Source: Prochlorothrix hollandica PCC 9006 = CALU 1027
Lineage (GTDB): Bacteria; Cyanobacteriota; Cyanobacteriia; Prochlorotrichales; Prochlorotrichaceae
Length of the DNA stretch: 64,000 nt
Direction: 5' to 3'
Assembly (NCBI RefSeq): GCF_000332315.1
Contig: NZ_KB235937.1
Span: 766,675 to 830,674 of the forward strand
The notes beneath the pieces are model-generated. The model made no database searches, had not been told where the DNA came from, and saw only the letters and a program-made list of their open reading frames with translations. Position numbers and translations under genes: made by a program. Below are positions 2,870 through 52,526 of this stretch, piece after piece. Position 1 is the first letter of the stretch. Every line of letters begins with the position of its first letter.

Positions 2870-3730
2870 CTAGTCAGCAAAAAATTGGGGGTGTTGCCGT
2901 TTATATTCTGCTTTCAAGGCAGTTAAATATCCGTGTTCACCACCGAGAAGGTGACTAGCCACCATCGTAAATTGGCCCAAGTTCTCTACGGTTACAGATA
3001 TTTGATCCAAAAATTCTTTCCAAGGATTGGGATCCACTTGCCACCCACCATCTCCATCATGAAAGACACAGGTTCCCACATGATTAAAGCCAAAATTACG
3101 GGGCGGAACACGGGTGACAATATCGTTACCATTGACAACACGAAAGGTGAACCGGCCAAAGTCTGGCTCAAAGAAATCATCAAATTTATCGTCTCCAACC
3201 CGAGGAGAACCAAAGGTATACAACCCACTCACAGGGTGCTTCTGATGGCGATAAAAGGCAGTGGCGAGGGTGGCCAATGCTGCCCCTAGGCTATGGCCGG
3301 TAATCCAAAGGGATTGCTCATTATCTCGCATTTCCTCGACAGCCGCCAATACATCATCAATGACAGCTTCCAGAGCCGATCGAAACCCCTTATGAATATA
3401 ACCAAACATTGCCTTGACCTTAGGAAAGTTTAGGTCAGTACGCCAGTCTGTGCGGTTTTCAGTGCCTCGAAAGGCTAAAATTATAACTTTGTCATTCCCC
3501 ATAATAAAGCCTTGGGTATCAATGACTGCAATCTTATCTTCCAAAAACTTAAACCTTGGAAATCCCCATTGCTCTGCCTGGGCTTTAATATCACTTTCGG
3601 ATTTATAGGCTAGATCACAGGCTAAGGCTAGGGAGAGGGAATTACGAATATCATACTTCCCGACAATGTGGGGCTGAAAGTCAAAGTAACGATAATCGTT
3701 ATCATGGGTTTCTGGCAAAGTTGAAGTCAT
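2870..3730 (-). CDS. Class 3 (fungal-type) lipase family protein
   Basis: The 286-residue alpha/beta hydrolase belongs to the lipase class 3 family, which hydrolyses acylglycerols or related esters. Visible features: the nucleophile elbow ITGHSLGAALATLATAF near residue 142 (Ser in GHSLG), the preceding IILAFRGTE segment that forms the oxyanion-hole region, YTFGSPRVGDDKFDDFF, which supplies the likely catalytic Asp, and SHLLGGEHGYL near the C-terminus for the His. No clear signal peptide is seen, so it is probably cytosolic or membrane-peripheral. Substrate is unknown. It stands alone, flanked by repeats on both sides; the upstream 200 bases hold no gene before the A-family repeats. Confidence 0.9.
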   Translation of the reverse strand: MTSTLPETHDNDYRYFDFQPHIVGKYDIRNSLSLALACDLAYKSESDIKAQAEQWGFPRFKFLEDKIAVIDTQGFIMGNDKVIILAFRGTENRTDWRTDLNFPKVKAMFGYIHKGFRSALEAVIDDVLAAVEEMRDNEQSLWITGHSLGAALATLATAFYRHQKHPVSGLYTFGSPRVGDDKFDDFFEPDFGRFTFRVVNGNDIVTRVPPRNFGFNHVGTCVFHDGDGGWQVDPNPWKEFLDQISVTVENLGQFTMVASHLLGGEHGYLTALKAEYKRQHPQFFAD

Positions 3731-3925
3731 CGCTTCTGGGCCTCCAGTCTAAATAATTTGGGGTAGATTAGGGTAATCAAGCAAACGGATCGATCGAAGC
3801 ATGGTCGCGTGGTCGTTGCGTCGTCAGGGCTGAAACCCGTCTCGACTCCGGTTATTTTTCCAAGTCTACTGAACGGCACCCCCCTACAGCGCAGGGATCG
3901 TCTCTGTTTTTGCATAAAACCCTAC

Positions 3926-4028
3926 TACAGCAATCCTAAATCAGTTGTAAGGATCTCGATCGCTGAAACCCTTTACGTGGCGTGTGCCCTCCGGGCGCAC
4001 ACCACACAACCCATCTCAGACGGCTGTA
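3926..4028 (+). mobile_element. MITE-like repeat A, copy 1
   Basis: 103-bp element. Its ends TACAGCAATCC and GGCTGTA are imperfect inverted repeats, and the centre is a long palindrome (GTGTGCCCTCCGGGCGCACAC). Same family as the other eleven A copies. It lacks coding capacity, so it must be moved in trans if mobile. The terminal TA suggests insertion at TA. Confidence 0.85.
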
Positions 4029-4039
4029 TAAAACGAGTA

Positions 4040-4142
4040 TACAGCACTCCTAAATCAGTTGTAAGGATCTCGATGGCTGAAACCCTTGGTGTGGTGTGCC
4101 CCCGGAGGGGGCACACCACACGACCCATTTAGGACTGCTGTA
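4040..4142 (+). mobile_element. MITE-like repeat A, copy 2
   Basis: 103-bp A element in tandem with copy 1, separated by 11 bases. The word TAAAACGAG follows both copies, as if the pair arose by insertion next to a duplicated flank. The element ends only 16 bases before the start of the broken ADP-ribosylglycohydrolase gene. Confidence 0.85.
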
Positions 4143-4158
4143 AAACGAGGTGAACACC

Positions 4159-4516
4159 ATGTTATCGTTGGGCGATCGCCAGCGGGGCTGTCTTTTGGGG
4201 TTGGCGGTGGGGGATGCCGTCGGGGCGCATGTCAGGGTTGGGGGGGTGCATCGTAGGGGCGAAGCATGGGCGGCAAAACTTGGGGCGATCACCCAGAGAA
4301 TACCTACGCCCATGCTTCGCCCGTACCCAAAATGGGGGCATTGACCTCCCCTGATTTCAATCCGATCCTGCCCCCCCAATGACGAGATGCGCCCGATGCC
4401 GTCGGTACCACAGTGGAGTTTAAAGCCCGTGGTTCATTTCCTACCGTTACAGACCTAGTGGGGGGGTGGTCCCTTTGCCTTGCCTGCCGGAGCCTAGACC
4501 GATGACACTTCTATGG
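4159..4516 (+). pseudogene. ADP-ribosylglycohydrolase (DraG-like) gene remnant, split by a MITE
   Basis: The frame starting ATG 4159 reads MLSLGDRQRGCLLGLAVGDA, the typical N-terminus of ADP-ribosylglycohydrolases, which remove ADP-ribose from proteins or metabolites using two Mg ions. At VGDAVG the reading is broken by element C1; directly after it the same codons resume as AVGTTVEFKARGSFPTVTDL. Further on, a G run has 7 instead of the 6 Gs needed for VGGGPFALPAGA (a +1 frameshift), and the expected Trp codon before TDDTSM reads TAG. The remnant then stops at TDDTSM, where the pbpC tail begins. Three independent lesions plus truncation mean the gene is dead. The family match is by eye but very characteristic. 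Confidence 0.9.
4223..4394 (+). mobile_element. MITE C, copy 1, with 10-bp target duplication
   Basis: 172-bp insertion with imperfect terminal inverted repeats (GGGCGCATGTC at the left, GACGAGATGCGCCC at the right) flanked by the direct repeat GATGCCGTCG at 4213-4222 and 4395-4404. An inner inverted pair (GGGGCGAAGCATGGGCG / CGCCCATGCTTCGCCC) could form a long stem. No coding capacity. Two further copies lie near 42.1 and 52.4 kb. Confidence 0.95.
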
Positions 4517-7096
4517 AACCGGTTTTTCCTGGGGGTTGCTCACACCGTCGGCTTCTGGGGTTTCGACGAGGGTAAACCCCCGCTTCAAGGTGGTTCCCGC
4601 TGCTTCCCCTAGGGCTTCCACCGTAAACCCGACCTCCTCCTGCCAATCCGCCGCCACCACCTTCAGCACCCAATCCCCCGGTGCCAAATCCCAGAAGAAA
4701 TCGGGCTGGCGTTGGGTTGCTAGGGGGTGATCATTGAGGAACCAGGACACCGGTTGAGGGGGTGTGGCGGTGAGTTGGAACTGGATCCGTTGGGAGGGGG
4801 TGGGGGGGGATCCAGGGGGATGGGATTCGATTGGGGCATCAGACGAGCTAGGGCCAGAGCTAGGCATAGGGCCAAAACTAGGGCCAGAACTAGGGCCAGA
4901 ACTAGGGCCAGAATTAGACTGATCTGTGATTAGAAAAAAGCGATCGCCCGGTGCCGGGAACTGAATATGGCGGACAGGGGCAGAGTCTGGGCGATCGACA
5001 CCACAGGCCGAGGAGGGCGCACAGACCCCCGAACCGGGCGCAGAGGGCTGAACGCTAGACAAGGCTGCATCAGAGCCAGGGGCAGCATCGGATCGAGGCG
5101 ACTGAGGGCGACTATATTCCAGCACCATCGTGGCGCAGGGAGTCCCCCGACTATCATCTGCGGATAACCCCGTGGCGGCACACACCGACACCTGGGGCCA
5201 ATCCGGCAGGGGGAATGGCTCCGGTTCCTGGTGTTCATGGAGCTTCAGCATAATACGCTGCCACAGGGGAGCCGCCCCCGTCACCCCCGACACCTCCACC
5301 ATGGCACTGCCATCAAAATTGCCAACCCAGGTGGCCACGGTGTAATCCTGGGTATAACCCACGGTCCAGGTATCCCGAAATTGAGACGAGGTGCCCGTCT
5401 TCACCGCTGCGGGAAAGGGCAGGGTCAACACCGACTCCACCCCAAAGGCTTGGGCACGGGCATAGGGATCCCGCAGCATATCCGTCAGTAAATAGGTGGT
5501 GGTGCGATCGAGGCTGGCCATTGACTCCAGGGCACCGGGCTGCACCGCAACCCCCGGCACTGTCACCATCTGCCGCCCCTGGCCCCCCGTAGCCAAGGTC
5601 ATATAGGCCCGCGCCAACTCCCACAAACTGACCTCACCGCTCCCCAGGGCCAGCCCCAAGCCATAGAAATCCGAGGACTGGGTGAGGTGGCGAAACCCCA
5701 ACTGCTGTAGACGGGTCAGGAACACCGGCACCGTCACCCGCTCCAACAACCGCACCGCCGGGAGATTGAGGGAATTGGCCAAGGCCAACCGCACCCGCAC
5801 CGTCCCCTGAAAACGACCGCTGTAGTCCATGGGGCTGTAGAGTTGGGAGCCGGGAATGGGGTAATGGGTGGGCACATCGTCCAAGAGGCTGGTGGGCTGG
5901 AGGCTACCCCGATCGAAGGCCAGTTGATAGAGAAACGGTTTGAGGGCAGAACCGGGTTGGCGCAGGGCTTGCACCCCATCATTGCGACCCTGGAACCCCT
6001 CCCAATAGTCGGGGGATCCCACATAGGCCAACACCTCCCCGGTGCCATTGTCCAAGACCAGAGCAGCAGCATGGGTGACATTGTGGGAGGCCAGGGCGGT
6101 GGTCACCTGCTGGACTTGGGCCTGCACAAAGGTTTGCAGATCGGGATCAATGGTGGTGGCGATCGTAGCGCCCACCCCCGGAGGCAACTGGCCACTGAGC
6201 CAAAACAGAAAATGGGGCGCTTGGAGGCGATCGCCCCCGCTTTGGCGCAATTGCAAGGTGGGCAGTTGGGCCGCGATGCGATCGGCCTGCACCGCATCCA
6301 AATCCCCCTCCGCCACCAACCGATCCAAAACATAACCCTGGCGCTGGCGCAAGGCCATGGCATGACTGTAGGGATTCAAGCCGTTGGGATCATTGGGCAG
6401 TGCCGCCAAGACCGTGGCTTGGTCCCAGGTCAAATCCGCCGCCGGAACCCCAAAATAAAACCGCGCTGCCGCCTCCACCCCATAGAGATTGCCCCCCATG
6501 GGTAGCCGGTTGACATAGGCTTCCAAGATCTCGGCTTTGGTCAGTCCCGCCTCCAGCCGCCACGCCAGCCACACCTCCCGCAGTTTCTGGGGTAGGGCGC
6601 GATCGCCATCGGGGTTCTGGGCCTGGGACAGCAGCCGCGCCAACTGCATGGATAGGGTGGACGCACCGCTAACAATGTGACCCGCCTTCAGCGCCTGCTC
6701 GGTGGCCCGCACCGCTGCCCCCCAATCCACCCCCCGGTGCTGGTAAAAGTGCTGATCCTCAGCGGCAATAATGGCGTTGATAAACCGGGGCGAGACCTGA
6801 TCCAAGGGCACGGTTAGGGTTCGCTCCTGACTCTGGCTGAGGAGGGTTCCTAGGGGTTGGCCCTGGCGATCGAGAAAAGTCAGGGCGCGATCGGCCTGCT
6901 GTAGCGACTCTGGCTGCACCGGCATCACCAGGGGCAAACCCCGAATCCCCAACCCCACCACCACAATCCCCCCCACGGCCCAAGCCCACCGCTGCCCAGG
7001 TCTCTGTTGCCCAGGTCTCTGTTGCCCAGGTCTCTGTGGCCTGCCCGATCCCAACCGTTGCAGCCACCGTACCACCGCCGTCCCCTGTCTCACCAT
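4511..7096 (-). CDS. pbpC: Penicillin-binding protein 1C, bifunctional glycosyltransferase/transpeptidase
   Basis: The 861-residue protein polymerises glycan strands and cross-links peptidoglycan at the cytoplasmic membrane. It has a basic N-terminus, one membrane anchor (WAWAVGGIVVVGLGIRGLPL near residues 37-56), a GT51 domain (AAEDQHFYQHRGVDWGAAVR with the catalytic Glu, GASTLSMQLARLL), a transpeptidase domain with SxxK in GSALKPFLYQ, SLN and KTGTSSQFRDTW, then the PBP1C C-terminal domain near residues 770-830. The N-terminus holds an in-frame repeat RPGQQRPGQQRPGQ and the linker before the last domain an in-frame SGPS repeat (12-bp DNA unit). Its last codons abut the ADP-ribosylglycohydrolase relic. 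Confidence 0.93.
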   Translation of the reverse strand: MVRQGTAVVRWLQRLGSGRPQRPGQQRPGQQRPGQRWAWAVGGIVVVGLGIRGLPLVMPVQPESLQQADRALTFLDRQGQPLGTLLSQSQERTLTVPLDQVSPRFINAIIAAEDQHFYQHRGVDWGAAVRATEQALKAGHIVSGASTLSMQLARLLSQAQNPDGDRALPQKLREVWLAWRLEAGLTKAEILEAYVNRLPMGGNLYGVEAAARFYFGVPAADLTWDQATVLAALPNDPNGLNPYSHAMALRQRQGYVLDRLVAEGDLDAVQADRIAAQLPTLQLRQSGGDRLQAPHFLFWLSGQLPPGVGATIATTIDPDLQTFVQAQVQQVTTALASHNVTHAAALVLDNGTGEVLAYVGSPDYWEGFQGRNDGVQALRQPGSALKPFLYQLAFDRGSLQPTSLLDDVPTHYPIPGSQLYSPMDYSGRFQGTVRVRLALANSLNLPAVRLLERVTVPVFLTRLQQLGFRHLTQSSDFYGLGLALGSGEVSLWELARAYMTLATGGQGRQMVTVPGVAVQPGALESMASLDRTTTYLLTDMLRDPYARAQAFGVESVLTLPFPAAVKTGTSSQFRDTWTVGYTQDYTVATWVGNFDGSAMVEVSGVTGAAPLWQRIMLKLHEHQEPEPFPLPDWPQVSVCAATGLSADDSRGTPCATMVLEYSRPQSPRSDAAPGSDAALSSVQPSAPGSGVCAPSSACGVDRPDSAPVRHIQFPAPGDRFFLITDQSNSGPSSGPSSGPSFGPMPSSGPSSSDAPIESHPPGSPPTPSQRIQFQLTATPPQPVSWFLNDHPLATQRQPDFFWDLAPGDWVLKVVAADWQEEVGFTVEALGEAAGTTLKRGFTLVETPEADGVSNPQEKPVP

Positions 7097-41988: not shown

Positions 41989-42275
41989 GCTTACCGCTAA
42001 AAGCGGGACAAGATTAACGCGACAAGATTAACGCAATAGTGGGGCGCTCCGCGCCCGGGCGCATGTCAGGGTTGGGGGGGTGCATCGTAGGGGCGAAGCA
42101 TGGGCGGCAAAACTTGGGGCGATCACCGAGAGAATACCTGCACCCATGCTTCGCCCGTACCCTTCGCCCGTACCCAAAATGGGGGCATTGACCTCCCCTG
42201 ATTTCAATCCGATCCTGCCCCCCCAATGACGAGATGCGCCCCCGCGCCCCACTGTCCCGGCTTAAGTTGATACCC
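41989..42275 (+). repeat. Palindromic repeat B, copy 7, interrupted by MITE C
   Basis: The left half GCTTACCGCTAAAAGCGGGAC and right half CCACTGTCCCGGCTTAAG ... GATACCC of a B repeat are separated by MITE C copy 2. The left half also has a duplicated GACAAGATTAACGC. Confidence 0.92.
42057..42241 (+). mobile_element. MITE C, copy 2, nested in repeat B
   Basis: 185 bp, inserted within the B hairpin with an 8-bp duplication CCGCGCCC on each side (42049-42056 and 42242-42249). It is 13 bp longer than copies 1 and 3 because of a tandem TTCGCCCGTACCC. Confidence 0.93.
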
Positions 42276-52266: not shown

Positions 52267-52526
52267 GGGTATCACCTTAAGCCGGGACAGTGGGGCGCTC
52301 CGCGCCCCACTGTCGGGCGCATCTCGTCATTGGGGGGGCAGGATCGGATTGAAATCAGGGGAGGTCAATGCCCCCATTTTGGGTACGGGCGAAGCATGGG
52401 CACAGGTATTCTCTGGGTGATCGCCCCAAGTTTTGCCGCCCATGCTTCGCCCCTACGATGCACCCCCCCAACCCTGACATACGCCCCCCACTCTCCCGTT
52501 AATCTTGTCCCGCTTTAAGCGGGAAC
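52267..52526 (-). repeat. Palindromic repeat B, copy 9, interrupted by MITE C
   Basis: GGGTATCACCTTAAGCCGGG at the left and GTTAATCTTGTCCCGCTTTA at the right bracket MITE C copy 3. Lies upstream of the PucC gene; a tandem AATAATCCCAAA follows (52542-52580). Confidence 0.92.
52315..52486 (-). mobile_element. MITE C, copy 3, nested in repeat B
   Basis: 172 bp, opposite orientation to copies 1 and 2, with flanks CCCACTGTC (52306-52314) and CCCACTCTC (52487-52495), a 9-bp duplication with one mismatch. Confidence 0.93.

Follow-up and report, generated by a model that had tools for sequence, protein, structure and literature searches.

A probable relic of a Tri1-like ADP-ribosylglycohydrolase gene, interrupted by a MITE, in Prochlorothrix hollandica

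The gene relic and its neighbours

The window, a stretch of 64,000 nucleotides from Prochlorothrix hollandica (G000:C5:766675-830674), was analysed within its own genome, which was searched as 5.65 Mb in 13 contigs with a completeness of 99.16%. Photosystem and light-independent-reductase-like genes were also noticed in this genome (L077 among the loci), as fits a cyanobacterial host. An ADP-ribosylglycohydrolase (ARH, PF03747) gene is represented at positions 4159-4515 of the window, on the forward strand, by its first 54 or so codons, and a sequence read as the probable Shine-Dalgarno of the former gene, GAGGTG, lies at 4147-4152, 6 bases before the ATG. The immediate neighbours of the relic are both encoded on the reverse strand, a class 3 lipase-like gene (PF01764) at 2870-3730 on one side and a penicillin-binding protein 1C (PBP1C) gene at 4511-7096 (PBP_1c, TIGR02073, 565.7 bits) on the other, the latter running towards the relic in antiparallel orientation. 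Two copies of a dispersed palindromic repeat of about 114 bp are located just upstream of the relic (3911-4138, forward strand). A genome search with this repeat gave 673 candidates; scoring of 40 of them yielded 41 rows with a length of at least about 100 bases. A copy is also present behind the intact ARH gene found elsewhere in the genome (around 2636-2740 of its locus, L001).

The relic is made up of three pieces in order. The 5' piece (4159-4222) extends from the start codon to VGDAV, with the final G codon split, and is translated as MLSLGDRQRGCLLGLAVGDAVG. The second part (4395-4515) begins with DAVGTTVEF, ends with TDDTSM and is split over two frames. The middle piece is DAVGTTVEFKARGSFPTVTDLVGG when translated from 4395, and the third piece, one base over from the frame of the middle piece, is WGGGPFALPAGA*TDDTSM (GGGPFALPAGA*TDDTSM), in which the asterisk is a stop. 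The PF03747 profile search of the genome matched the relic with E 1.9e-5 and 25.8 bits, with one TGA and two TAG codons inside the match; together with its in-frame neighbours the match reaches 26.8 bits and thereby clears the cut-off of 26.2. A match this short and at the cut-off could in principle be a chance resemblance with no ARH gene behind it, a reading which we regard as extremely improbable and which is refuted by the three ordered pieces. In 43 of their 54 columns the pieces are identical to the family consensus, and each of them scores above all shuffles when compared with intact cyanobacterial relatives, with scores of 77, 90 and 65 against L041 (shuffle maxima 32, 38 and 33) and of 87, 100 and 67 against L037 (shuffle maxima 34-47), using 200 shuffles for each. 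The sequence-only reading, which had named the gene an ADP-ribosylglycohydrolase and proposed a protein search with the reconstructed sequence, is confirmed on this point.

The gene had also been described as truncated, and it is: the ARH homology stops at 4515, about 54 codons into a gene of some 300, and the final 80% or so of the gene is missing from the relic. Only positions 1-55 of the 287 of the PF03747 profile remain, leaving the catalytic domain incomplete. No second piece of the relic's subfamily was found elsewhere in the genome by the PF03747 search, which located two ARH places in total.

The PBP1C gene ends in a TAG at 4511-4513 on the reverse strand, antisense of the Ser-Met codons of the relic. 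After the last conserved RGF its tail has 20 residues (4511-4570, reverse strand), and the corresponding tails of nine relatives (L198-L206), counted by eye, are 6, 7, 6, 5, 5, 7, 3, 3 and 25 residues. Since its tail exceeds that of eight of the nine relatives, the PBP1C stop was probably taken from the relic. A 3' deletion would then have removed the original end of PBP1C and fused the relic to this gene, which now stops in the relic; from the tail comparison the deletion probably changed the PBP1C end, and the one long-tailed relative (25 residues) leaves this account uncertain. Neither a lipase nor a PBP1C gene was found (E <= 1e-5) in any of 109 loci of relatives, 29 of them from 39 relative genomes, which have only the rank of class in common with the host, and 80 from a second search. 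Inversely, no ARH was found beside PBP1C homologues in 11 other loci, a further locus (L197) being that of the window itself, with its relic. The PBP1C linker contains a Gly-Pro-Ser-Ser stretch that is encoded by a short tandem repeat of agggccagaact-like units (4850-4920).

The inserted MITE, the surplus G and the stop codon

The VGDAVG motif of the relic is interrupted by a non-coding dispersed repeat of 172 bp (4223-4394, forward strand) with inverted ends of 24 bp that are 79% complementary. It is flanked by an exact target duplication, GATGCCGTCG(G), with the left copy at 4213-4222 and the right copy at 4395-4404, which is 10 bp by the element boundaries and 11 bp with the ambiguous G. 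Being short, non-coding, dispersed, bounded by inverted ends and flanked by a target duplication, the element is a miniature inverted-repeat transposable element (MITE), splitting the motif with a perfect duplication as previously described. At least 57 distinct places in the genome carry the family among the 100 matches listed, and long matches were found at 40 distinct places when 40 of 84 candidates were scored. The end pattern occurs 109 times in the genome as compared to 2 times for the reversed control. Among the 30 copies most similar to that of the relic, whose flanks were tested, 25 are flanked by exact duplications of 8-11 bp and five by none, as against 1 of 870 mispaired flank combinations sharing at least 8 bp. 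Two further copies are present in the window at 42057-42241 (G000:C5:808731-808915) and 52313-52487 (G000:C5:818987-819161), and the flanks of one copy (L007) resemble the palindromic repeat of about 114 bp.

Of 194 genomes of the class, two matched the MITE, the host and another with only a 72-base stretch at 73%, and since this second match is weak and partial, the MITE appears lineage-specific as far as sampled. A 40-base core of the element had no exact match in the genome_contigs collection, which may omit the host genome. A parent transposon or transposase was not found in the genome, and among the matches listed no longer element was seen to lie between two GGGCGCATSTC ends. Ten stretches beside lone MITE ends comprised eight truncated copies, one with the end only (L077) and one without a match (L078). 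An IS-like transposase frame is found about 1.5 kb from a lone MITE end in L069 and is only a putative partner of the element.

Downstream of the MITE, the frame changes inside VGGGPF, where a run of seven Gs (4460-4466) contains one surplus G (+1 frameshift), which could be a homopolymer assembly error. The Trp before TDDTSM is replaced by a TAG at 4495-4497. At this position Trp is found in all 76 rows of the family alignment; the count is not an unbiased one, since the selection demanded W or I before TDD, but none had I. These rows were kept from 99, and the 23 others were dropped with the motif region missing, cut or changed, among them L040 with a stop at the Trp codon. The surplus base and the nonsense codon are hence where they had previously been read. 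Each single lesion, whether the MITE, the surplus G, the stop codon or the 3' loss, should on its own have sufficed to eliminate the enzyme.

A still useful fragment would have to be the product of the 64-aa open frame at 4150-4344, which starts in the relic and continues into the MITE, or be produced by way of frameshifting and readthrough. That frame is indeed open, and L040 has a TGA at the Trp codon of the relic in a gene that is otherwise open. The catalytic C-terminal part is however gone, the MITE and the duplication add 182 bases out of frame, and L040 is also altered at a conserved Asp (TDETSM) and is itself pseudogene-like, so that a retained function is highly improbable.

The relic's subfamily and its relation to Tri1 and DraG

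The lost activity had been taken to be DraG-like, and a relic of DraG proper, the dinitrogenase-reductase-activating enzyme partnered with DraT and PII, was weighed against a relation to Tri1. DraG (TIGR02662; PDB 2woc, 3g9d) belongs to the same Pfam family and has the GDAxG and TDDT motifs in common with the subfamily of the relic, and in matches to the intact subfamily the models and structures of DraG rank no higher than second. The best NCBIfam model for the intact subfamily is instead that of Tri1 (NF041672), an ADP-ribosylarginine hydrolase and immunity protein, which gives L041 346.4 bits, below the cut-off of 490, as compared to 166.7 bits for the DraG model TIGR02662, below its cut-off of 337.05. 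As neither cut-off is reached, the subfamily is here named Tri1-like and not Tri1. The catalytic domain is common to Tri1 and the intact subfamily over its whole length. The match of L041 spans positions 60-359 of the 361 of the NF041672 profile, so the subfamily lacks the N-terminal extension of Tri1, and since only 9 residues of the relic precede GCLLGLA, its gene was also without this extension.

The structures rank in the same order. The closest PDB chain to the intact relatives is 6dre, with E 4.6e-80 for L037 and 4.4e-78 for L041, followed by 2cwc, and the DraG-type chain 2woc is further down with 2.2e-36 and 2.6e-33, respectively. The PDB molecule name of 6dre is ADP-ribosyl-(dinitrogen reductase) hydrolase; we take 6dre and 6drh to be Tri1, the former from Serratia. 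The 6dre chain carries the WTDDTSM motif, as does the subfamily, whereas DraG has ITDDT or VTDDT with Glu or Gln as the next residue (2woc; L196). The second-best structure, 2cwc, with the molecule name ADP-ribosylglycohydrolase and presumably of Thermus origin, is likewise without the N-terminal extension.

A DraT partner, the search for which had been suggested as a check, was not recovered, with no match to the DraT model in the host genome. The same model matches one of seven comparison genomes, Methylobacter sp. KS41, in which draT adjoins a true draG (TIGR02662, 425 bits) and the Tri1-like ARH (L100) is a separate gene, identical to the DraG of this genome in 84 of 283 aligned positions. 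Against the true DraG beside DraT the pieces of the relic score 37-52, as compared to 65-100 against L041 and L037. Nothing above the cut-off for nifH was found in the host genome, the best match (212.9 bits against 394.35) being probably a chlL-type relative, we assume. By the bit scores, the scores of the pieces, the ranking of 6dre above 2woc, and the lack of DraT and of nifH above the cut-off, the DraG identity was rejected and is considered very improbable.

An intact paralogue had been suggested as a check, and the genome does contain an intact ARH gene (G000:C10:133902-134762, L001) with 206.7 bits to PF03747 and no stops, but of another branch than the relic. Its motif is MSDDTE, its best structure MJ1187, and its similarity to the Tri1-like L041 is local only; it is not a copy of the relic, whose pieces score much lower against it than against the Tri1-like relatives. 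No intact copy of the relic's own subfamily was found by the PF03747 search of the genome, and PADLOC matched neither of the two ARHs. The proposed loss of activity consequently holds for the relic's subfamily and not for ARH as a whole, L001 being intact.

Age of the lesions and implications of the loss

The locus very probably holds what is left of a stand-alone Tri1-like ARH gene, a dead N-terminal fragment with a MITE, a surplus G, a stop at the Trp codon and loss of the 3' part. It is an ordinary pseudogene. The initial observation of it is correct, but the name given to the subfamily and the reading of 'long decay' need revision. The set of lesions is not in itself evidence of a long decay. 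The MITE copy differs from the consensus of the 30 copies in one position, and the relic has kept 27 of the 29 conserved columns (>=90%), the Trp being one of the two lost, in comparison with 25-29 of 29 in the 76 family rows, among which L047 and L124 are genes with a later stop. The perfect duplication, the near-consensus MITE and the retained columns indicate few substitutions since gene death, so that the lesions, judged by substitutions, look young. The best identity of the relic to any row is 43 of 54, and the typical best among the rows themselves is higher (median 48). This may be because no close relative is among the rows or because some decay has taken place.

The wider ARH family is patchy in the phylum, with 59 of 386 genomes matching at E <= 1e-20. 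Seven genes from 29 loci are at least 70% identical to L037 (L036, L039, L040, L041, L047, L050 and L037 itself), of which four are open, two are broken and L050 runs off the stretch. One of the broken genes, L040 (G023:C1:862482-863288, reverse strand), is open over 295 aligned residues except for a TGA at the Trp codon of the relic and has TDETSM for TDDTSM with the conserved Asp changed, and the other, L047, is broken by a TAG at a different Trp. The same Trp codon has thus been stopped twice in the class, by TAG in the relic and by TGA in L040 of G023. Such patchiness and repeated loss would suit a protective gene that can be dispensed with, but the numbers are small. A more novel idea, which we consider very improbable, is that the Tri1-like orphan ARHs are dispensable antidotes often gained and lost in cyanobacteria, and that the Trp-TDDT codon is repeatedly hit by inactivation or even serves for regulated readthrough.

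An excerpt of PMC6397177 describes Tri1 as an ADP-ribosyl hydrolase that shields FtsZ from Tre1, and in a corresponding excerpt of PMC12483513 a conserved, broad-acting enzymatic activity is set beside a cognate-specific binding domain. A form without the extension would by analogy retain the enzymatic part only. The intact ancestor of the relic may, like Tri1, have stripped ADP-ribose from protein arginine, and would then probably have given broad defence against ADP-ribosylating toxins and not nitrogenase switching, before the gene was discarded by the lineage. Substrate and role are put forward by inference, since the intact subfamily reaches 346 of the 490 bits that the Tri1 model demands. 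The relic is a clear small example of a gene that died with a MITE inserted in it, and the name of the enzyme is corrected here; that PBP1C probably captured a stop codon is a mild curiosity. With the lost enzyme grouped with the Tri1-type ADP-ribosyl-arginine hydrolases, its loss would speak to toxin exposure and not to nitrogen regulation.
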